Source: Proales similis (taxonomy: Eukaryota > Rotifera > Eurotatoria > Ploima > Proalidae). Taken from it: 64,000 nt of DNA. Below, piece by piece: positions 18,914-34,793 of this stretch. The notes under the pieces were generated by a model, which had not been told where the DNA came from, did no database searches, and worked only from the letters and a program-made list of their open reading frames with translations. Each line of letters opens with the position of its first letter. The first letter of the stretch is position 1. The stretch is taken from contig JAGVRJ010000006.1 in NCBI GenBank assembly GCA_019059635.1, positions 1,550,001 through 1,614,000 on the forward strand, written 5' to 3'. The position numbers and the translations under genes were made by a program.

Positions 18914-20904
18914 ATGGCGACTGGCAGACATTCAACCGAATCGAACGGCTACGGTCTGGCGGTAGGTTTTTTAGCTCAGACGACTCAGACGTGTTAAATT
19001 ACCGTGAAATAAAGATCGGCTTCATTTACATCTTCAATCTAATTGTCGGCTCTGGAGCTTTGACGATGCCAAAAGCGTTCGAGAACACCGGCATCATTCT
19101 CAGCTCTGTTCTCTTGATTGTTCTCACGCTCATGAGGTGAGTACCCGAAGCCGGCGTGACTTTTTGAATCGCCCTTACAAACAAGCTTTGAATTGACCTC
19201 CGTAAGCTTCATCACGGCAACATTCATGTTTGAAGCAATGTCAATAGCCAACGCAGTTAGAAAGTACGAGACCATTCGAGTAAGAGAACTTTGCCCGCCG
19301 CAATGAGGCAATAATTTCTGATGCAGCGATCGACACAAGGACAAAATAGAGCAGAGAAAAGAGTTAGGTAATGGCGAAGGAGCCATACAAACCTCGAGCA
19401 TAGATGCAGTTGACTCAACCGAAAACCGTCCCCTAATCGATCCAGACGATGACGAGCAGAATGAAAGCATAAGTACTGACCATTCAACTCGACTGTTCGC
19501 TTGAGCAGTTGGAATAACCGCTCGGTCTAGATCAGTTGAACGACGAACTTGCCAATCCGTACGAGTTGGAAGAGGCAATGCTCAAACGCCAGGCGAACAA
19601 GTTCTTTGCCATAACCACCAAATACGAAATGGTAGCTGCACGGACATTGCTTCCCACTCATTTCTAATTTGCATTCTCGCTCCAAAAGGGAGAAATGGCG
19701 ACAATGTTTTTCAATTCGAGTAAGCTTGTCAACTTCTTTTAAACATATACGGCGGCTAATTTCGGATCTTTTCAGCCGGTCGCTTTTTCTTCTACTTGGC
19801 AATGATTTTGTATTTGTACGGTGACTTGGCAATTTACGATGCCGCAGTGCCAAAGTCACTGCGCGACACCGTCTGGTTTGTGATGCTGCTGCCCTCTTGT
19901 TTCGTCCGTCTCTAAGAGATTTCTAAAGCACTTTTTACCGCGATAATGGAACAGTGTCGGAGAGCGATCCTTGCTGGCCGAGCATAAACAACCTGGACCG
20001 GCTTAGTACTTACCGTTTGTTTGTGCTGCTATTCAATCTTACCATCGGCGTGCTAGTGTTCTTCAATATTCAAAAAACAAAGCTTTTGCAACTGCTGACC
20101 ACCTTGGCCCGGTGGCTGGCGTTCATTACAATGATTACGCTCGCCACTCGAATCATAATCGCTAACCAACGAGAGCACAAGCCAGTCGACGTGAACCTGG
20201 TGAACATCAAGGGCGTGCCCAACTTTTTCGGTGTCTGCATATACGCGTTCATGTGCCACCACAGTCTGCCGAGTATCGTAACGCCCATGAAACGCAAGCA
20301 CAAGTTCAAGCATGTCCTCGTCTCTTCTTACACTTTGATTATAATCTTCTATTTCCTCATTACGTTGACGGGCGTGTTTGCGTTCGGTAAAAATCTCGAC
20401 GATTTCTACACACTCAACTTCTTGCCCGATCACAGCAACAAGCGAGGCCTTCTACTGCAAATAATCGACTACTATTTGTCGCTCTTTCCAGTGTTTTCGA
20501 TCAGCGCCAGCTTTCCAATAATAGGCATCACCCTACGCAATAACCTTCGAAGTCTGTACGCTCTTCTATGCGGAGCGAGTGCCAATGTAGACGGCTTCTT
20601 TACGAGAATAGGCTTGCCGTTGATCACGCTCTTGCCACCGATGTGCATCTCACTGATTACACACGACCTGCAACTACTGGTGGGCATTACAGGCAGCTAC
20701 GCGGGCGTGGCTATCCAATACACCATACCGAGTCTCCTCGTCTTTTTGGGCCGCAAGCACGCAATTTCGATATTCCGTCACAATTACCAACGAGTTCACT
20801 CATTCGCTTCTCCGTTCAAGAGCCGCTACTGGGTCTTTTTTGTTCTAATATGGGCCAATCTGTCAGTGATTTTTGTAACCATTAATCACATTCTTAACCT
20901 TTAG
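18914..20904 (+). CDS. TMEM104: TMEM104, SLC38-like multi-pass membrane protein
   Basis: TMEM104 is an amino-acid-transporter-fold protein of uncertain transport function. Eight exons give about 532 aa: 18914-18961, 19015-19136, 19186-19263, 19327-19472, 19531-19631, 19689-19719, 19776-19898 and 19955-20904. Landmarks are IYIFNLIVGSGALTMPKAF in the first membrane helix, ILYLYGDLAIYDAAVP, FFNIQKTKLLQLLTTLARW, GVCIYAFMCHHSLPSI and SFPIIGITLRNN. A loop after the second helix is acidic and poorly conserved. Two junctions (19264-19326 and 19899-19954) rest mainly on frame and use weak donors, so a few residues there may be wrong. The family call is secure. Confidence 0.93.
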
Positions 20905-21432: not shown

Positions 21433-23725
21433 ATGAGCTACTCGCTAGGTAGGTGGCTGTCCATTTTGGCCCAAACCGCATCACTCGTTCGTAAATGTAC
21501 TTGAACCTTTCAAAAACTTGAAGAGAATGTGTTCGCCTCTTTGCCGCGCACAGTCCGCGGCGCTTTCACTGTGCTGGGCGCCGACCCCAAAGGCCAGAAT
21601 TTTCTGTACGTGAACGGGAACAGCGTGTTTATAAGAAACGTGGAAAATCCGTTCGTATGCGATGTCTACACGGAGCACTCGTGTCCTGTTCAGGTGGCCA
21701 AGTACTCGCCATCCGGATTCTACATCGCCTCAGCCGATCAGGCGGGCAAAGTGCGCATCTGGGACACGGTGAACAAAGAGCACATACTCAAAAACGAATT
21801 CCAGCCGATCGCCGGATGCATCAAAGATCTCCAATGGTCCAGTGACAATCAGCGAATCATAATCGGCGGCGAAGGACGCGAAAAGTTTGTTTGAAAATTC
21901 TCAATCGAAAAGAAAACCAGTCTCTTGCAGTGAAAGAAAATTGCTCCTTGTAGATACGGCCACGTGTTCAATGCTGAGACCGGAACGAGTGTGGGTGAAA
22001 TAATGGGCGTGTCCAAGCCCATAAACTCAGTGGACATGAAGCCCAGCCGACCGTTCAGGGCTGTAGTGGCCAGCGAGGACAACAGCATTTGCTTCTTCGA
22101 AGGTCCTCCCTTCAAATGGACTAAAACTCTGAACGAGCACAGCCGATTTGTGAATGTGATTCGCTATGCACCAAGCGGCGAGTTCTTTGCCTCCGGTGGA
22201 GCAGATGGCAAATTGGTGGTGTTCGATGGCAAGACTGGCGATAAGCAGTTCGAGCTTGAAGACAATCAAAAGAACGCGCATGCTGGCGGCATTTACAGTC
22301 TCAGCTGGGATCCGAGCAGCAAATTCATTTTGACCGCATCTGGCGACAAAAGCGCCAAAATCTGGAGCATAGAGGAAAAACGCGTTGTAAAGTAATCCAA
22401 CACTCTCTCATTCGAGCATTATTGGGCACTTTCTAAATCCGAATGAAACTCAAAGGAGCTTTCAGTTCGGAGAGAGCATTGAAGACCAACAGGTCGGCTC
22501 ACTCTGGCTCAACGAGCATCTTCTCACCGTTTCATTGAGCGGTCAAATAAACTACTTGAACGGCTCGAGCGAGTCTGATGAGAAAGTCAGGCGAGTAATC
22601 AAAGGACATAACAAGAGCGTCACAGCTCTGGAGGTGGCCGGCACCAGTGTTGTCAGCGGAAGCCACGAAGGAGCCATAATTTGCTGGAACGGAGAGAACG
22701 GCGAGATGGAGTCGATAAAATCGAACGGCTCTGTGTCTGGACATACAAACAAAATTCAGGCCATTCGGTTTGATGCATCGAGCGCCACTGCGGTTTCTTG
22801 CGCCTTCGACGACACCGTCAAGTTCATTGACTTGGCCAGTAAACAATTCGTGTGAGTCTTGATTCAAGCTCATGCTCAATCACTTAAACTTTCTATACAA
22901 ACGAATGCCTTAAAAGTCATGAGATTCGATTGGACTCCCAGCCCCAAGGACTGGACATCAGCCTGAACAGCGATGTGTTGGTTGCTTGCATCAAGAGCGT
23001 AAGGCGATTCTGTTGGTCTCAATTGAGCTCTTGTTTACACTTGACATTTTCTAGCTCGTGTTGATCAGAAACAATCAAGTAGTCAAACAGGTTGCACTTG
23101 ACTTCGAAACGACAAGCGTTAGTGTGATGCGATATGGCAACAAAGTGGCCGTGGGTGGAAAAGTGAGACAGTCTTGTTGATGCTCGAGCAAATGCCCAGC
23201 CTGTTTACACGTTGATCTTCACTAATTCTTAGGACAACAAAGTGCACATCTATGACCTGGAGAGCTTGACTGAGATCAAATCGAGTCAAGAGCGTGACTT
23301 TATTACTGCCGTGCGCTTTTCTAACAATGACCAGTACCTTGCAGTGGCCGACAACGCCAAGAACATAAAATGCTACAAACTCGACTCGGACAGCGGTCTG
23401 ACAGACGTGACCAATGGCCTGTGGCAACATCATGCTGGCCGCATCACATCTCTGGCCTGGTCGGCTGATTCCAACTATCTGGCATCGACTGGTGTCGACA
23501 CGCACTGCTTCATACTTTCTCCCAACAAAGTGAACAGCTACTTGCAAATTAAAAGTAAACGATCGAATACGAAGAGTGTTCTCTTTTGCCGCTAATCATC
23601 TAAAACATTCAGATGCTCATCCATTGAACCCGGCAAGTGGCTGCGCTTGGCTTAGCGACAAACAGCTGATCACCAGTGGACAAGACTGTTGCCTTCGTAA
23701 ATGGAAGCTCAGTCCCGATTTCTGA
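21433..23725 (+). CDS. WDR1: Actin-interacting protein 1 (WDR1), WD-repeat cofilin cofactor
   Basis: AIP1 works with ADF/cofilin to disassemble actin filaments. Eight exons (21433-21448, 21524-21884, 21954-22391, 22456-22851, 22917-22998, 23055-23162, 23233-23554, 23613-23725) join in phase to 611 aa, close to the human length. The protein is a pair of seven-bladed WD propellers. Landmarks are [100 protein letters not shown] and [14 protein letters not shown]. The first coding exon is only 16 nt. A poly(A) signal lies near 23912. Confidence 0.96.
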
Positions 23726-24927: not shown

Positions 24928-27900
24928 ATGATTAGCACAAATCACGCAATCAGCATGCCGTCCCACTGGAATTTCTTTTTCATATTGCTGAGCTTGACAA
25001 TTTGGCGTTCGGTCTTGGCCAACTCAAAAATCTACGACCGAAACCGCTACTCGCCCTACTCGTCCTACTTTGTCAATCCATACGACTACGCCAACACGCA
25101 ATCGTACGCCGGCAATCTCTTTCAGAGCCTCTACGAGCATCTAAACGAAGTGAAGCGCGAGTCGGCCAGATGTGGAAATGTTCCGGTGCCAAAAACAATA
25201 TTGAAAAAGCGATATTTCAATCCAGAGTACGAATACGAAGAGCGCAAGTATTGGTACCCGCCCGAAGACCATCACTACGTGGTTTGGTGGTCGCAATACG
25301 AAACACTTCGCAGCTCAATTCTCATGGGCTATCTCCTGCAGGATGACAACGCTCTGCTCCCTCCCGGTAATTTCATTTTAACTCGATCGTTCGTGATCGA
25401 TTTGTAACCAGCCATTTGCTCAGGCTGGCTTTATCTGTATGTGTCGGCTGCGGCTCAGCTCCATTCGCTGCAGACAATCGGTCTAAATGCCGAACGAATT
25501 GTAAAAGGTATTAAGATGCCGTTCGAAAGCAATGAGGCGTTCAGGGTCAATTGGTGGAGCGATGGCTACTTTATGAATTTCGAAAAGCCGTTCGCAATCT
25601 ATGCCACGTATGTTCATTCTGAATTCGCTTTGAGCTTAAACTCACGCTGATGATGATGATGCTGTGATTTCTAGACAGCCGCGTCCACTCGATAAAAAGT
25701 ACGTTCGGGTTGAAGACTTTGGCCTCGGAAATTACACCGAGGACTACACAGGACATGCGTATCTGGGAAATTATCTTTACGAAAGAAAGAACTTCCTCTT
25801 GAACAATTCGTTCGAGTACAGCAATTCTCAAAAGCGACCCTATCAAACTCAGAGGCTGAATTTAGAAGAGGAAAAGAGCCGGCCAGGCCAAGATCCATTT
25901 GCGCCCGATGCATTTGGCAGAGGCAATTTAAAGAAGAGACAAGTCGCCGACAAACCATTCCTGGTCGAGTATCCTCCACAATATCCAATCAAGCGAGTCA
26001 AGACCCTCAATTCAGACCTGAAGAGCAGCGCTGATCAGCCCCCAGGTCCCAATGGTCTAAAGGGCTACGAGCAACAGCGACCTTTTGATCCATTGGATTT
26101 GCCTCTCTACAATCAGGCACCAGCATCGTCCATCAACGACCTGTCGGCGTTCGCCTACACAAACAAGCAGCGAGTTCCCATCTACGACTGGGACCCTCTT
26201 GAAGACAACGGCCGCAAAGATCTCACCCGTTTTCCCAACCGCGACTCGGTAATGGGCTTCGATCAATGGTACATAAACAGTATTTCGCAGAGCGTTGCGG
26301 TCGACGTCATCAAAGCGTCGGACGAGAACCCGTTTGTCTTGAAGGAGCTCAACTACATTGACACTTATCGATACGCCAAGCCATGGTGGAAGAACGAGAC
26401 CCACTTTGTCAACAATCAGCAGCAGTAAGCAGCCACTCTCTTCTTTGATCAATTAGACTTTCTGAAATTCATAAACTCTGAATTAAGCTACGAGTTTCGC
26501 ATAAAGCCCGGCGACCGCTACTATCGCTTTGTCGGACCCAAGTACGAGCAGTGGGTAGAATGGACGCCGCCCTATTTCTGGTGCCAAGATCCAACGAACT
26601 GGATCGTGAGCTCAATGAGCCCGATATGGGCCACCAATCATTTCGAGTATAAAAACCGCCGTTTTGAAAACAACTCGCCGCTTAGGATGGCAGGCCTCAG
26701 TGAAGTTGTGTTGAATTTTGAAGAGCTGGACATAAATCAGTGTCCAGGCGATCGAAAGTTGAACGCGTTTGGAAGCACGGCGCTTTGCGATGCCACGTCA
26801 GTTTGCAAGCCGGTCGCGCTTTATCGCTTGACGCCGGGCGGCTACGAGTGCGAGTGTCGAGGTGGATTTCATGCGCCTTTAGGAGTTCAGACACCATACA
26901 AGGGCCGTCATTTGTCGAGCGATTTACACTCGTATCCGCTCTGCTTTCCCAGTGAAGGCCTCATGCAATATCCGAACTGGCTAAGCAAGAACGCCATCGA
27001 CTTTCCGATGCCCAACTCGCCCGCCCATCACTTTGACTATTCGTTCAAGACCAATCTGCGCAAGCGGAGAGACTCGGACGCCAGAGGAAAGAAAGCTCGG
27101 AGCAAGCGATTTCTAGATCGACGCAACAACTTCGAAAAGCTCAGAGATTCGGTTTTTATCGATTTAAATCATTATAGACGTCGATGCCAGCAGAACATGT
27201 TCCAGGACATAATTCGTCTAAACGAAGACGACGAGCGGTTCATGCTCGCTCTCAGGTAACGTCTCGCTTGCTTAGCTTTGCTCAAGGTCAAACTTGAATG
27301 TTCGTGCTTGGTCAAAGGAATCACGCCAATCAAGTTTTCAAGCCTCAAATGGCCCAGGCGATCAGACTGGCGCATGTGATATCAGCATACCTTCAACTGC
27401 ATTCACCGTTCAGCGAGTCGTCCGTCAATCTGCAGAACGAATACGCCAAGTCAAACAACTTTGGCACCAACTTACGCCCAGATCCTCAACTTGACGAACG
27501 CGTCATTATGGGCGAGCTCTATTCGACTCTGATCACCAACTATCCGATCCAGGAGGTGAACGTGTTCTTCAACGGCTCGGAGTTCGAGCGGCAAAAGTTC
27601 TTTGCCAGTCAGCACACACTCGCGTTCGGCCTCAGTATGATACGTTCGGACATCGAGATATTGTTGAATCGCAGCAACGACCATTCTCATTTGAGCAAGA
27701 GCTGGTACAAAGACTCCATTCACCGCTTCATGTACTCGGGCGGCAAGAGCCAGCAGTTCGAGTATTTCAAGGAGCGCGAGGAGAAGCGATTCGAGAAGAG
27801 CGACAGTCCATTCGGCCTCAATCCGTTCGATGACAATTTCCTGCTCGACAGATACGGAATCGAGATGAGTGTGCGCGGCTCCATGCACGGCCAGTTTGGA

Positions 27901-28616
27901 AGTCGCGAGCTGCCGCCCAAGTTCTACGACGCGGCTTCCTCAGGAGTCTGGTACGGACCGTTCTACGACTGTCAGAAGCGATTCATGAAGACCAAGACAA
28001 CGATGAGAATGAGCTACAGTGTCCCCATCATAACGTCGGCCGCCCGTTTGCCCATGTAAGCTCTTAGGCCAAAACGAATTCAATTTTCAAATATGACCGC
28101 AAATTTTTGCTCTCTGAAGCGGTTTCGTCTCGATTGTGGTCGGCTCTGATCTGCGCTGGTGGAAGATTAACCCGTGCGATACCATAAACACTCAGAACAT
28201 GTTCCAGAGCGTGCATAGATGTGACCGCGAAACGACACAGGTAAACAGATTCAACAAGCGTTTGAGATTCTCCCGTCTAAATTTGCGCAATCGGCTAGTG
28301 TCTGCCTCAAAACATTCCCGAATTCGAGAACGGCTATTTCCTCGCATCCTACAAGTGTATTTGCCGGGCCGATCATGAGTTTCCGTTTGCCGACTACGGC
28401 TCGAGCTACTTCGAAGGCGGCACGGTCGAGCGAGAGTACGAGAAAAAGATGAAAGGGCAGCCGAACATTTACGATCGACTCAAATGCCGGCCAATCCAGA
28501 AGCCGTCTGGTCCCTTCGCTCGCCATCGAGCTTTCAACTCCGCTCGCTCTATCGTTCCTTTGTTCTCTTTCGTTTTGATTTCCACTTCATTTGTAAATGT
28601 GTTCCTTCAACTGTAA
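24928..28616 (+). CDS. Secreted/GPI-like protein with two GPR158-type Cache-EGF modules
   Basis: Seven exons (24928-25366, 25424-25607, 25675-26424, 26488-27255, 27318-28055, 28120-28240, 28299-28616) join in phase to about 1105 aa. A signal peptide is clear (WNFFFILLSLTIWRSVLA). The C-terminal module has PFYDCQ, SYSVPI, GFVSIVVGSDLRWWKINPC, HRCDRETTQCLPQ and YFLASYKCICR. That pattern is characteristic of the Cache domain plus EGF-like knob in the GPR158/GPR179 ectodomain. About 450 residues earlier a second copy of the layout appears: PYFWCQD (C490), SMSPIW, GLSEVVLNFEELDINQC (C543), then CKPVALYRLTPGGYECECRG. Basic sites NLRKRR and ARSKRF between the modules look furin-like. No seven-helix domain follows. 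The chain ends in a short hydrophobic tail after small residues (NSARS), which suits GPI attachment. Function unknown; ligand sensing is an inference from Cache domains. Confidence 0.82.
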
Positions 28617-28777
28617 ATCCGACTCTCCACTTGGCTTTTATTCCATTCTTTTTTCTATGCCAATAGAGAATTGAAATTGAGCTTTTCTGCTTCTTTCTCT
28701 GCTTAACCAAGTCTAATCGATGAACAGAAAAAGTGATACAGAGAAAGAGAGGCCGGTTTAGCATGAAAAAACAGAAA

Positions 28778-29118
28778 TTATCGGGCAAGGTTGTTGAATA
28801 TGGAGTACGAAGGCTGTTGATGAGATTGAATTGAGTGAAGACATTTGATTAGCACGTAGATGAAGAGGATGCAAAGTGCGACCGAGATGATGAGCACCGC
28901 GATGCCAGCACCAATCAATAAGCCCTCTAGCAGTTTTCCACTCGGCCAGCTGAATCGAGCGGCGTACTGGTTGACTGAGAAATTGACCAGCTCCTCTGGA
29001 CAAAACGAAAAAATAATTGACGAAAGCCTCAGGCGTTCACCCTCTTACCAGTCGGATAAGTAGCTCCGTTTGAGAAGAAATCAAATGCGATCAACGCAAT
29101 TAGCTGGTTAGCGATCAT
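28778..29118 (-). CDS. Small single-pass membrane protein (unrecognised)
   Basis: Two exons, 29049-29118 and 28778-28995, with a 53-nt GT-AG intron, give about 95 aa. Neither exon stands out alone, but the join is in phase and the ends are clean. A short N-terminal region (FSNGATYP) and a central stretch (YAARFSWPSGK) precede one strong transmembrane helix (about residues 48-74, LLIGAGIAVLIISVALCILF) and a short tail rich in Gln, Ser and His. I recognise no family. It lies immediately next to, and on the same strand as, another small membrane protein at 29437-29706. Both have a single phase-1 intron, but I see no real sequence similarity. Confidence 0.55.
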
Positions 29119-29436
29119 TTCTTTTGCTTTCGAGTGAATTTTTCTTTTATTGACTCGAGTGAGCCGGCACAGAGCGAGCGTTTAAATATCTCCGATCAGG
29201 CCGAGTGCAATCGGATCATTTAGAGGCAACTCTTGGTCAGTGTAGCTCGAATAATTATCATAAAGAAGGTTTTATTGATGAATCAGGGGGCTCGAGTTTA
29301 AAACAGAAATCATCGTTTTTTGAATTTAGCTTCTCCTCTCGGCGACAGTTGGAATTGGCTCGTGAAAAAAAAATAAAATCAACCACTGTCGACGAAAAGG
29401 TGAAAAAAAGGTCAACGGTGGCGTTACGAGTGGCTT

Positions 29437-29706
29437 CTAGGCTTTAGAGAACTCGTCTGCAAAATAAAATTAGAAATTGAATTCTTGACGAGCGGCAAAA
29501 TGAGAAAAAAGGCGCGAACCTGGCACGACCAGACTGGTGAATAGGTGTACTCGGCGACGGGCCCGAATGCGTCGGCGAACTATTTGAACAACCTTGATTA
29601 CGAGAAGGGCCAGAATAGCAGTGATCAACAGAGCAGTTAGGGCTATTAGAACGTAGTTTCGGCCAGCCGAAACAGAGACGCCGTATTCACTCCATTTTGT
29701 TGACAT
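29437..29706 (-). CDS. Small single-pass membrane protein with Arg-rich tail (unrecognised)
   Basis: Exons 29520-29706 and 29437-29456 join through a 63-nt intron with a good polypyrimidine acceptor, giving about 68 aa. If unspliced the frame runs to 78 aa with a different tail. One transmembrane helix (YVLIALTALLITAILALLVI) is followed directly by a strongly basic segment (RRRIRARRRV), which predicts a cytosolic C-terminus. No family is recognised. Its neighbour at 28778-29118 is also a small single-pass protein. Confidence 0.5.
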
Positions 29707-30533
29707 TGTTCTAAATGTTCACTTGAATGAAAAAGAGCAAGCTGAGTCGAAACTGTCGAATGAGCACATTGGCCATAAACAGGTCTAACGAACGACTTGA
29801 ACTCGCACTCTTAAAACGCTCGAGGCAGGGTCATCTTGAGTGGTAACCATTTTTTAGCCGGGTAGCCAAGTCCGGTTGAGTAAGGGAACTAGGACGAGTC
29901 TAATTCAGACGGTGTTGAATTTTCAGACACACGGATGTAATTACAGAGCGGGGCTCTTTGTCCGAAATGGCTTGCTTGCAGGAGGAAGTGAAATCGCTTT
30001 GGTGAATAGAGTGCAAAATCTGAATAGTTAATATAGATTGCGATTAGAAGAGGAGAATGCAGATTACTATTTGTGGACTTGTAATCAGATTGTGAACTCA
30101 GGTCGGATCATGGTTATTTTGATTACTTGGCACGCGTTCATTCAGAATAGGACGAGCCTAAGGTGATCAAGCGCCGTGCATTTTTTATTAAACTTGGACA
30201 TTTTCGAATCACATTAAAACAAGTTCCAGTTGTATTTTGGTTTCGATTTTCAGTTCGGGAGCAAAATTCTCGGCAAAAAACTAAATACTCTTGAGGCAAA
30301 TACTCTTGGGGCTGCAAGACATAATGTCAAGTTTGATTTGAACTTGCCACGAAACCGTGACTTGTCAAGACTAAATATTGGAGGCTACTTCGGACATCAA
30401 TGCTAAACACGGGAAATTGCTAATCTGAATTAAGCCGGGCAAACAGTTGGGCCGTTTAGTTGGCATTAGTTCATATTACTCGATCGAAGAGGCGCGGAGA
30501 CACAAAAGCCTTGTGAGGCGAGCTCGGCAAGCA
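29707..30533. promoter_or_regulatory. Divergent intergenic region upstream of RYBP
   Basis: About 830 bp between the small membrane-protein gene (minus) and RYBP (plus). No coding exon found. The RYBP frame is open upstream to 30447 but only to TTG, so the 5' UTR probably starts nearby or an upstream exon is not recognisable. Confidence 0.4.
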
Positions 30534-31526
30534 ATGAAAAAGAGCAATGAGAAGGGCAGTGCCGGCCTGGCGGTCGATGAGGCATCGAGCGAAAGCAGCA
30601 TCGAAAATCGCAAGGCAAAACGCTCGAGGCTGGGACCCGCCATCGAGGAGGGCTGGAGCTGCAGCCTTTGTACGTTCCAAAACAAGTCGGAGGCGTTCAA
30701 ATGTGAAATGTGTAACATGCGCAAAGGAACCAGCACAAGACGTCCGTGCACAGCTCAAGTCGCCCAGCAGTTTTATGTGATTGAAAGTCAAATTGAGCAA
30801 GAGAAGAGACGCAAGAAAGAGGCTAGTCGACCGAAGAGCACGTCTAGGCCCAAAACAAATCGCTCGAGCAGTCGTCAACTCGCCACTCGAGCGTTTAACA
30901 ACCGTGAAGCGAGAAATGCTCAGACAATATCGGTTACAGTTAACGGAGTGACCGTTCTGATAACCGAATTCGAGCTATCAGATGGCAAAGAAACAGAGAG
31001 GGACACAGAGGAGGACGCTGAAGCCGATCAGAGCCACGGACGAAGTGAGGAAGAATTCGACGAAGCTGAAGCAGAAGAGAATGATGATCAAGAGGACGGC
31101 AATCGCGATGACGAAGACGACGACTATGAAGATTCATCGAACGCCAAACGGCGCTCGAGCACCAAGCGCAAATCAAACCCGTCGAGCAATAAGCGATTGT
31201 CAGCGCCTAGCGGTGCACGAGCCAACTCTCAGAAAAGCTCAGCAAAAGCCAAACGCCAAAGTGAGCAAAAAAAAAGTGAAAGCGAGCCGGCAAATCCTTC
31301 AGACAGCGAGGCGAACACGACCCAATCAGACACTGAGCCGAAGCAAGAAGAGGTGGCCTCCACTCAGGAAGCTGAAGACACGGCAGCTGATCATAGTCCT
31401 GCAGATGGCAAGAGCGAGTCGAATGAAAACCACGAGCCGAACGATCCAGACGAAAGCGCGCCGCTTTATGACGAGTCGATGAACGAAGAAAAGAGTCTTC
31501 AAATCGACGAGGAACCTGACCCTTAA
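30534..31526 (+). CDS. RYBP: RYBP/YAF2, RING1-binding subunit of variant PRC1
   Basis: RYBP/YAF2 joins variant Polycomb repressive complex 1, binds RING1 and ubiquitylated H2A, and promotes H2AK119 ubiquitylation. The single exon encodes 330 aa. A RanBP2-type zinc finger near residues 38-66 has the pattern C-x2-C-x10-C-x2-C ([16 protein letters not shown]) followed by RKGTSTRRP. The RING1-binding strand segment is [17 protein letters not shown] near 150. The remaining C-terminal half is a long Asp/Glu/Ser/Lys-rich tail, so the protein is longer than vertebrate RYBP (about 228 aa). The ATG at 30534 is the first in frame. Confidence 0.93.
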
Positions 31527-31792: not shown

Positions 31793-32888
31793 TTACTCGA
31801 AATTTTCAAGAAGCGTATCTGCGATTTTTAAAACACTTTTAAAGCTGCCCGACTGCTTTAGAGCGGTCCAATATTTCTCTCCAGTTTCAGTGTTCTGGCT
31901 CAGGGACGGATCAATCGGAATGGAGCCTTCAACGTGGTTGCGTTTGTATTTTTCATGCTGAGACAGACTTCAACTCGGTAGACACTCACCTAAATATCGG
32001 CAATTGGTCTTTTCCGCCAATATTTTCCCGCCTTCTTTGGTGAATATGTAAGTGCACTCGTCGCAATGAGGGCAAACGTAGCCGTTCATGTTTTCCACAA
32101 TTCCGTCGATGGGAATGCCCAGTTTACGGCAGAACGTAATCTCGCGCCGCACGTCGTTGGCAGCCAGATTCTTACACAGGCGAGTTGTAGATGCCCAAGT
32201 GTTTCGATATGAGGATACGAGGCACTCACTTGAGGCGTGGTGACCAAAACGGCCGAAAAGTCGTCAAGATTCATCGACTTGAGGTTCTCGATCATGGCCA
32301 AATGCTCGTCGCTTGTTCCGGGCGGAGTATCGATTAGCAAAAAGTCGATGTCGCCCCAGCAGACGTCCGTCATGAATCGTTTGATCATCGCTTTAATTCG
32401 AACCAGGTCAATTCAGACGGAAATTCAACAATTGAATGATCGCTCACAATTCTTTTTGGGTCCGCGCCAAATAACCTGAAATGAAATGTTCTCAGGCGAA
32501 TGTGGAATCAAAGTGACAAGGCTCAAAGTGCATACAGCGTCTGACTTGGAATTGAGCAAGAAGCCGATCGAGATGATGGCGAGCCGTTTTTGGTCGTCAA
32601 CGTAGACCGGGATCCAACCGTTTTCACTTTGCTGGATTTCGCCGTTTTCTTTGGCGAACATGCGCGGAATGCTCGGACCACAGAGGTCAATGTCAAGAAC
32701 GCCAACCTTGAATAGACCATCTAACCCGAGTCGGTGTTTGTTTTGGTCTAGTCCTTTACCTTGAAGCCTCTTTCGTAGAGTGAATAGGCCAGTTGCATTG
32801 TGACCGATGACTTTCCGACGCCACCTTTGCCTGACAGGATCAGGAAGCACTTTTTTACCGAAAATTGGCAATCTTTTTCAACACTCAT
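31793..32888 (-). CDS. NUBP2: NUBP2, cytosolic Fe-S cluster assembly ATPase
   Basis: NUBP2 (yeast Cfd1) forms a scaffold with NUBP1 that assembles 4Fe-4S clusters for cytosolic and nuclear proteins. Six exons (32760-32888, 32536-32706, 32448-32475, 32230-32390, 31990-32170, 31793-31926) join in phase to 267 aa, close to human NUBP2. One exon is only 28 nt. The deviant Walker A is [11 protein letters not shown] near residue 15. Further motifs are [46 protein letters not shown] and the cluster-binding CPHC within [10 protein letters not shown]. There is no N-terminal Cys motif, which separates it from NUBP1. It faces the lipase-like gene across a 409-bp divergent spacer. Confidence 0.96.
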
Positions 32889-33297
32889 CTTCTTTCGAGC
32901 TGACTGAGTACCAAAGATATTTACGGCCACAAAATGACTGGGCTACGCATTTTATATTTGGAAGCCTCTCATGGGCAGAATAAAGTTCTCAAACGCTCTT
33001 CTCGCTTCGAACAGCCTTTGCTTTTGCGACCAAGTCTCAGGGCTAGATTTAGGCAAGATCCTGTGTCGAAGATCGGCAAGAAATGTTTCATTTGAAATTT
33101 TCTTGTCCACCTTGAGCGCTCATTTGCATCCAAGGCCAGAGCTCAAGAGCCCCCTGACAAGGTTCAATTGAAGCATGAAAACAAAACTGCGATAACGATT
33201 CAAAATCGAACGATTCTTTCTTATCACTTTCAGATTTGAGAGATAAAAATCCCAATTGAATGTTCAATTTTATTCAGAACAAATTAAAAAGCAAAAA
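32889..33297. promoter_or_regulatory. Divergent NUBP2 / lipase-like spacer
   Basis: About 400 bp between divergent start codons. Open frames here are short and composition-driven. No motif stands out beyond AT-rich sequence near 33230-33297. Confidence 0.4.
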
Positions 33298-34793
33298 ATG
33301 AGAATAGGCTTAATAATTCTGATTGCACTGAGCGGACTGGTTGGTGGCCTGGCGTACCAGGACGTCTGCTACGGAGAACTGGGCTGTTTCAGCAATCGGC
33401 CACCGTTCGGCGGGACCTTGTCGCGGCCTTTTTCGACAATTCCAGATGAACCGTCGAAAATTGGCACAAGGTTTACATATTCATCGCGAACTGTTCAGCA
33501 GGAGTCGATCTCCCGCCACAACTTGCCTCGCCTATTCAATCCGCAGCATCAAACTGTTTTGATCATTCACGGCTTCTTGCACAACAGCTCAATATCTTTC
33601 ATTCGGCAAATGAGCGAGTCTCTTCTCAATCAAATGGAAGCCAATCTGATCGTGGTAGACTGGTCGAGTGGAAGTGGATTTCCATACACGCGAGCCAGCG
33701 CCAATACGCAAGTTGTAGCAGCCGAAGCTGCTCTTCTACTTCAAGCGTTGGTCGAATCCTATTCGCTCATGCTGAGTCGCGTTCATATAATCGGTCACAA
33801 TCTTGGCGCCCATGTGGCTGGCTACATCGGCAAGCGGCTCAAAAGCGTCGGACGAATCACGGGTCTTGATCCGGCAGGCCCCTATTTCGAGAACACACAC
33901 GAACTTGTTCAGTTAACGAAAAATGACGCCTCATTCGTCGATGTGATCCACACAGATGGAAACTCGCTCCTTAAGCTTGGCCTCGGCCTAATGCAGCCGT
34001 CAGGCCATGTTGACTTTTACCCGAACGGTGGCAAACAGCAGCCTGGCTGTCCTTCAACTTCAAAAAAACTGCTCAATGCTATTTTCGGCCTGGTGAGCCT
34101 TGGAGTAGACGACCTTGAAGATGTGTCTGGTTGCAATCATGTGGCTTCGTACAGATTCTTCATTGACTCGATTCAGAATCGATATTGCAAGTACACGGCC
34201 TACAAGTGCCAGTCAATGGAGAGCTTTGATGAGGGCGCATGTCTAAGGAGCTGCGACGTCAAAGGCTGCAATCGAATGGGCTTCTGGTTGGTTTTTTGAC
34301 TCTTTTCGATGCATTTTTTTTGTTTATTTTCCAAATATTCAGGGCCACGCCCGAAGGTCAACAAGGCAGTCTTTTACTCGAAACTCAAACGGCCGATTTC
34401 GAGCCATATTGTGTTCAAAACTTTCAAATTCAATTCGTGTCCAATTCTCTGCCCGATCAGCTTCAGTCGAGAGGCAAATTTACTATCTTCTTTCGCAACC
34501 TACTCCAATCGACGGACGTGTACGTGATTGACAACTCGGACACGACTTTCAAAGCTGGTTCAACTTTCGAGCTAAAAATAGCGCTCAGTTCATATTTTAC
34601 TGGCCCGGTGGAGAGTGCCGTGGTCTCTTTTCGACGCACCTCAAATTTGCTCAGCTCTTGGCTCTACGATAAAAAGTGGTCATTCCGCTACATAGAAATA
34701 TTCAACGGCGAGACAGGCGCTCTAGCGCGCCTTTGTCCACGTCAACTCGTCATCGAGTCCGGCGAGAGTGTGCAGTTCATCAAATGTAATTGA
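33298..34793 (+). CDS. Pancreatic-lipase-family secreted protein, catalytic Ser replaced by Asn
   Basis: Exons 33298-34286 and 34343-34793 encode about 479 aa. A signal peptide (MRIGLIILIALSGLVGGLA) leads to mature sequence with ELGCFSNRPPF, as in pancreatic-type lipases. The fold is clear: TVLIIHGFLH, NLIVVDWSSGSGFPYTRA, GLDPAGPYFE, HTDGN and GCNHVASYRFF. The nucleophile elbow, normally GHSLG, reads GHNLG, with AAT at 33799-33801 (N168). Asp191 and His281 of the triad remain. The second exon holds a PLAT-type beta domain. The frame is intact and cysteines are kept, so this looks like a maintained non-enzyme, as in insect yolk proteins of the same fold, rather than a decaying gene. A single-base sequencing error at the AAT codon is the alternative. 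AATAAA follows at about 34817. Confidence 0.88.

Follow-up and report, generated by a model that had tools for sequence, protein, structure and literature searches.

A gene of the minute marine rotifer Proales similis, located on the plus strand at positions 24928-28616 of the window (the whole stretch of 64,000 nucleotides analysed here, positions 1,550,001 to 1,614,000 of contig JAGVRJ010000006.1, hereafter C6), carries twice in a single chain of 1105 amino acids the type of head that GPR158 and GPR179 carry once, that is, a Cache domain followed by an EGF-like stalk. By sequence comparison, both modules are homologous to the ectodomain of GPR158/GPR179, and module 2 is so also by the fold predicted for its relatives. 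The explanation that we favour, with moderate confidence, is that of a surface co-receptor anchored by glycosylphosphatidylinositol (GPI) and cut by a furin-type protease, with two GPR158-like Cache-EGF modules, one of them ligand-competent, and no seven-transmembrane (7TM) core, the anchor and the cleavage being predicted. Two of its features go beyond an earlier annotation of this DNA made from the letters alone (the original prediction), namely a near-fixed furin-type site between the modules and the loss of an acidic pocket residue in module 1 alone.

Two GPR158-type modules in one chain

The coding frame, from an ATG at 24928 to a stop codon at 28614-28616, is open across the seven exons and six GT-AG introns of the gene, and the exon joins are uninterrupted in the relatives P0001 and P0008 (alignment compared by eye). 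In hmmscan, the protein matches PF22572, the GPR158/GPR179 extracellular domain, twice and both times above the Pfam cut-off of 28.1 bits (Table 1); the matches lie inside the regions (residues ~400-600 and 860-1050) where the original prediction had placed its two GPR158-like modules, which thus stand. PF22572 is the only family found in it at E <= 1, with neither an EGF family nor another Cache family, and the label "EGF-like" is based on the C-terminal part of PF22572 and on the cysteine pattern, with eight cysteines in each module. The profile of the family to which the protein belongs (see below) matches GPR158 directly at E 1.2e-20 and GPR179 at 1.2e-16. With these receptors the window protein shares a PF22572 ectodomain in which a Cache fold is followed by a cysteine-rich EGF-like stalk; unlike it, they have one module, a 7TM core and an RGS-bound cytoplasmic side (RGS7-Gβ5), while the window protein has two modules, no 7TM core and a GPI-like end.

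The Cache fold that had been proposed for both modules is borne out for module 2 by the models of relatives, which predict a Cache fold above an EGF-like stalk and give Foldseek and VIA matches to GPR179/GPR158. The fold predicted for module 2 also matches the bacterial Cache sensors 3li9, 3lic, PctD (7prq) and McpX (6d8v), although these are parts of bacterial signalling proteins (chemoreceptors or histidine kinases) and show 13-28% identity in those fold matches. Module 1 is poorly modelled in the clade of the window protein, and its Cache fold is assigned because of the PF22572 match and of the well-modelled relative P0033, whose whole-chain model has a predicted template modelling score (pTM) of 0.84.

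Absence of a seven-helix core

In the genome (32.7 Mb, 15 contigs), the class C 7TM family 7tm_3 gave 10 matches, none of them on C6, in a search in which only the best candidates were scored. Downstream of the gene, a scan of the plus strand from 28299 to 31000 for frames of at least 25 codons with a hydrophobic window of at least 1.5 returned two fragments, of 41 and 25 codons, besides the last exon. A missed 7TM exon was rejected on these two grounds, and the claim that the chain lacks a seven-helix receptor has held. The same applies to the family: 7tm_3 was found in none of the 37 members scanned, all of which have PF22572 and 36 of which have the Cache family PF22673 (a genome search with the PF22673 profile gave no match). 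Inner hydrophobic segments are missing from 160 of 171 tandem proteins, a set that contains fragments and both rotifer genes; ten proteins have one, one has two and none has three or more, against four and seven over the whole chain in the receptor controls. As for their names in the databases, the tandem proteins P0001, P0128, P0159 and P0097 are listed as G-protein coupled receptors or as Fras1-related matrix protein; P0001, P0097 and P0128 were scanned and gave no 7TM family match.

Other PF22572 genes of the genome

The PF22572 ectodomain occurs at a minimum of three loci in Proales similis. Besides the window gene, a second gene on C6 (locus L007, C6:788501-798000, minus strand, the gene lying near 792-795 kb) shares the two-module layout and has a GPI-like tail; it has 8 exons and encodes 879 amino acids with a corrected last acceptor, and it is nearer to the protostome tandem family than the window gene. 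The third gene, on contig C11 (locus L008, C11:1465001-1474500, plus strand), encodes a single Cache-EGF module followed by a membrane segment. About 1 kb downstream of it there is a weak 7tm_3 match (E 4.8e-4, below the cut-off; later exons were not assembled), and this gene is likely to be the true GPR158-like receptor of the rotifer.

An old protostome family

The layout, which the original prediction regarded as undescribed, is not unique to this gene, since at least 159 relatives (fragments included) exist outside the clade of the window protein, clade A, and the set analysed comes to 171 proteins when that clade is added (unnamed entries were not assigned to groups). Both modules are readable in 141 of the 159, and the other 18 lack two readable anchors. 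Most of the relatives, of about 800-1000 amino acids, are listed as uncharacterized or hypothetical proteins, and no paper treating such a tandem protein was found in the open-access literature, as judged by title and start of abstract.

The search with the window protein gave 12 matches: one starfish 7TM receptor and 11 relatives, which include fragments and whose named members are from Brachionus, Adineta and Rotaria. The monogonont-like relatives (P0001-P0005, P0009 and P0010) show 50-59% identity over 35-99% of the searched region, and the bdelloid ones (P0006-P0008 and P0011) 34-36% over 77-98%; of eight relatives that were scanned, six carry two PF22572 matches, and P0004 and P0005 carry one each. 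The gene models of the bdelloid P0007 and P0011 extend beyond the tandem protein and take in a stretch resembling a GNAT acetyltransferase (with weak matches that stay under the cut-off), and they are probably two genes merged by annotation. The search with the second C6 gene gave 50 matches, one of them a receptor (P0062, fish GPR158), and that with a profile of eight members gave 189, of which 120 were used. Among the matches listed, the named tandem proteins come from rotifers, insects, chelicerates, crustaceans, molluscs, annelids, the brachiopod Lingula, the nemertean Tubulanus and the orthonectid Intoshia, and there is no named one from deuterostomes, cnidarians, nematodes or flatworms, in a search that depends on shared five-letter words.

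A tree of 39 modules places all 18 first modules, that of the window protein among them, in one group (97/97), and all 18 second modules, again with that of the window protein, in another (90/98, not starred; 88% of the bootstrap trees). Since first and second modules each group together, the tandem is likely to have arisen once, by one old duplication that would predate the split of these phyla. The three receptor heads in the tree have very long branches and fall on the module 2 side; the root was not inferred. In the whole-chain tree, clade A, the second rotifer group (B), the arthropods and the lophotrochozoans each form one group with 99-100 on both measures, the longest branch separates clade A, and the order of the remaining groups is open. 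A common origin of A and B within rotifers is not rejected (approximately unbiased test in which all rotifers were constrained to one group, p 0.278), and a rotifer-only duplication of the B gene as the source of clade A is neither shown nor rejected. Two introns in module 2 are common to both rotifer genes at the same place and phase, as compared by eye: a phase 2 intron before GFVSIV/GVVRID and a phase 0 intron before CLPQ/CIHV of the EGF-like region.

With the protostome tandem family, the window protein shares the layout, the cysteine pattern, the hydrophobic tail and the two module groups of the tree. Its clade differs in having been seen so far only in rotifers, in its longer chains (due to an insert in module 1), and in lacking both the AGASS motif of the tail and the acidic residue of module 1.

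The ligand-pocket position

Glu271 of GPR158, which stands just before Cys272 and which, as reported by Laboute in 2023, is said to have a role in glycine binding, aligns with the fourth letter of a P-x-x-x-C motif present in the modules. At this position, module 1 of the wider family (141 readable) has Asp in 135 proteins and Gln in one, five being unread; for module 2 the counts are 75 Asp, 26 Lys, 19 Gln, 16 Arg, two Glu and two Asn, with one unread. In module 1 of clade A the position is aromatic in 12 of 12 (Trp in eight, Tyr in three and Phe in one), and in module 2 it is Asp in all ten proteins that reach it, P0009 and P0010 stopping before the core of module 2. Because its module 1 lacks the Asp of the family at the pocket position, clade A is regarded as a divergent paralogue and not as an orthologue. 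In the second module of the other rotifer paralogue the position is occupied by Gln; in the split-receptor reading given below, which is unlikely, the blind half would differ between the two (module 1 in the window gene, module 2 in the other), and they might act as complementary sensors in one animal. We also equate the Glu271 column with Asp173 of the bacterial amino-acid motif described in an excerpt of PMC10104139, which is our own inference and is not used here as evidence.

Apart from the pocket, EGF-like region 2 opens with KINPC (28163-28177) instead of DINQC. The Asp at the equivalent place of GPR158, D314, is a proposed calcium ligand (Jeong 2021, excerpt of PMC8611064), and its counterpart may therefore have been lost in this region of the window protein.

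A furin-type site and a GPI-like tail

The linker between the modules of the window protein holds two furin-type sites, RKRR and RSKR. Among the clade A proteins measured, 9 of 11 have the pattern RX[KR]R in the linker, where shuffled linkers would give 1.9; it occurs in 19/19 of rotifer B (1.0 expected), in 63/63 of the other proteins with linkers of at least 75 residues (23.4 expected) and in 4/68 of those with shorter ones (2.2 expected), the 75-residue boundary having been set after the lengths were seen. By group, with arthropods and lophotrochozoans sorted by hand from their names, the site is present in all 43 lophotrochozoans measured (47 named), in 28 of 30 rotifer proteins measured and in none of the 41 arthropods measured (43 named). 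Ten of the 171 proteins have no measurable linker (P0001, P0020, P0034, P0061, P0071, P0101, P0117, P0119, P0129 and P0132). Among the proteins that have the site, the distance from the first Arg of its last copy to the next cysteine is 29-30 residues in 9/9 of clade A, 15/19 of rotifer B and 54/63 of the long-linker others, and basic composition can hardly account for such a near-fixed place just before module 2. Given the eight cysteines per module, a cut there would yield two chains that need no disulphide link.

The secreted chain with a GPI-like end that had been predicted is upheld in its layout, both ends having been judged by simple hydrophobicity windows and not by dedicated predictors. 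The C-terminus of the window protein is hydrophobic (best 14-residue mean 2.05), with almost nothing after it, and the 12-residue mean at the hydrophobic N-terminus is 1.91. Outside clade A, 129 of the 142 relatives counted have a Met and a hydrophobic start, and 140/142 have a hydrophobic stretch in the last 32 residues (14-residue mean >= 1.6) with 0-10 residues following; this count needs a CR at most 90 residues from the end, so 17 of the 159 were omitted. After that last CR, the consensus of the 142 is [IL]-A-G-A-S-S (68 Ile or 52 Leu, then 114 Ala, 91 Gly, 117 Ala, 72 Ser and 74 Ser). Within clade A, the hydrophobic end is present in the window protein, P0001, P0003 and P0008, P0007 and P0011 run on into the GNAT-like stretch, and the rest are truncated or end otherwise. 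The tail of the tandem proteins has the shape of a GPI signal, and a GPI anchor is likely.

Proposed working and alternatives

In the co-receptor that we favour, the chain would be secreted and tethered to the cell by GPI, would in rotifers and lophotrochozoans be cut between the modules by a furin-type protease, and would sense a ligand at the cell surface. The two Cache domains meet in the dimer of the metabotropic glycine receptor, mGlyR (excerpt of the nanobody paper PMC12834959), and modules 1 and 2 might pair like those of the GPR158 homodimer, with both halves coming from one gene. After the cut, module 1 would be either shed or kept bound without a disulphide. In clade A, only module 2 could bind an amino-acid-like or amine-like ligand by means of its acidic residue, and module 1 would be a structural partner. 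As there is no cytoplasmic part, the signal would have to pass through another membrane protein, the single-module receptor of C11 being one candidate.

The α2δ subunits of voltage-gated calcium channels are GPI-anchored, proteolytically cut, provided with Cache domains, responsive to amino-acid-like ligands and devoid of a signalling part of their own. The likeness would be an analogy of working parts only: the VWA domain, a feature of α2δ, is absent from the window protein at E <= 1 in hmmscan, and an identity with α2δ, for which there was a weak fold match only, was rejected.

Several observations weigh against the co-receptor as proposed. Regarding the pocket, the position of GPR158 D307, which we take to be a second acidic pocket position, holds Val (module 1) and Gly (module 2) in the window protein; in clade A as a whole, eight first modules have Val there and four have Glu, and the second modules have Gly in 8/8 read. 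The four Glu are all bdelloid, so module 1 of the bdelloids is only partly stripped. Equivalents of Arg172 and Ser173, presumably pocket residues of GPR158 too, are not evidently conserved, by eye, and even module 2 of the window protein may be unable to bind glycine. Regarding the fold, module 1 in clade A has long stretches with a predicted local distance difference test score (pLDDT) below 50. Regarding the cleavage, the linkers of P0006 and P0008 have no site, chance sites are fairly frequent in long basic linkers (the 23.4 of 63 in shuffles), and the P1' residue after RSKR is Phe, which furin tends to disfavour at that place. Regarding the two ends, the N-terminal mean is just below the mark of 2.0 applied to the relatives, and the tail has a CR (KCRP) and a hydrophobic end without the AGASS motif.

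Is there, then, a small ligand at all? According to one alternative, which is possible but rather unlikely, these are adhesion or matrix-binding proteins whose modules bind glypican-like or pikachurin-like partners on the next cell, while the unused pocket drifts. The solved GPR179 structure 8d1b is, by its title, a complex with the matrix protein pikachurin, and in the window protein module 1 has lost its acidic residue and neither module has an acid at the second position; nevertheless, the wider family keeps the acid of module 1 in 135 of the 136 scored, which suggests that the pocket is constrained there. A more far-reaching version of the co-receptor, unlikely in our estimation, is a split receptor in which one gene encodes the whole Cache dimer of the GPR158 type, cut, re-paired and GPI-anchored, and in which, as in GABA-B receptors, one half would bind the ligand and the other would be blind.

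Is module 1, alternatively, made to be released? As a pro-ligand or decoy, the protein would shed a soluble module 1 through the RX[KR]R cut, which would bind or block the C11 receptor, module 2 serving as the tether. The near-fixed site in rotifers and lophotrochozoans, halves that need no link and the presence of a candidate receptor in the same genome are in line with this idea, but the lack of the site in the arthropods measured means that shedding cannot be the function of the whole family, and the whole-chain model of P0033 favours packed modules, so that it is quite doubtful. Still more improbable is a single-pass membrane protein, with the last helix as a true transmembrane anchor instead of a GPI signal: the hydrophobic length of ~20 residues would be enough to span the membrane, yet only 0-10 residues follow the best hydrophobic window, which in the wider family comes after small residues. 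Lastly, a mis-modelled class C receptor with a missed 7TM exon is hardly credible, in spite of the receptor names, or similar ones, that P0001, P0128 and P0159 bear in the databases, since no 7tm_3 match was found on C6 among the best candidates scored and the chain ends after the hydrophobic end in P0003, P0008 and the 140 relatives counted above.

Features of the window

The features of the gene are collected in Table 1. A second ATG at residue 10 is a possible alternative start.

Table 1. Position in the window of the tandem Cache-EGF gene and of the features of its product
Feature	Position	Strand	Basis
Coding exons	24928-25366, 25424-25607, 25675-26424, 26488-27255, 27318-28055, 28120-28240, 28299-28616	+	open frame; joins match relatives
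Predicted signal peptide, ~residues 1-31	24928..25020	+	hydrophobic start (mean of 1.91 over 12 residues)
Module 1, Cache-like region, residues 55-210 and ~405-535, long insert between	25090..26869	+	PF22572, tree; Cache extent inferred from relatives
Module 1 PF22572 match, residues 482-585	26558-26869	+	47.4 bits
Trp489 (motif PYFWC) at the GPR158 Glu271 position (wider family: Asp)	26579..26581	+	position comparison
EGF-like region 1 (DINQC...ECEC...C610)	26729..26950	+	cysteine pattern
Inter-module linker, furin-type sites RKRR (649-652) and RSKR (662-665)	27059..27109	+	motif; RSKR at shared place
Module 2, Cache domain, ~residues 700-975	27212..28165	+	PF22572; fold of module 2 of relative P0008
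Module 2 PF22572 match, residues 925-1025	27949-28373	+	49.9 bits
Asp931 (motif PFYDC) at the GPR158 Glu271 position, retained in module 2	27967..27969	+	position comparison
EGF-like region 2 (KINPC...CIC...C1063)	28163..28493	+	cysteine pattern
GPI-like tail, small residues then hydrophobic end, without cytoplasmic part	28539..28613	+	same shape in 140/142 relatives

According to Pfam, the neighbouring genes in the window encode an Aa_trans amino-acid transporter (19954-20901) and a WD40 repeat protein (21964-22392) on one side, and a YAF2/RYBP-like protein (30447-31523), a NUBPL/ParA-type P-loop NTPase (32428-32871, minus strand) and a lipase (33256-34296) on the other. No connection between these flanking genes and the tandem Cache-EGF gene was seen.

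Significance

GPR158 counted as an orphan before a report described it as a metabotropic glycine receptor (by a title cited in PMC12716839), and the excerpt of that article presents the Cache-EGF head of GPR158 as a component of a G-protein-coupled receptor (GPCR). Free-standing, doubled and, by prediction, GPI-anchored heads across protostomes mean that the head also serves a purpose of its own, apart from the helices. A practical caution follows for the databases, in which entries of a locust (P0128) and a rotifer (P0001) are named as receptors without a 7TM family match. The tandem family offers a helix-free system for work on ligand and structure, and it could supply partners or decoys for mGlyR-like receptors. 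If the split receptor, for all its unlikelihood, were true, these proteins would be an old and overlooked protostome class of amine or amino-acid sensors, sometimes mistaken for GPCRs.
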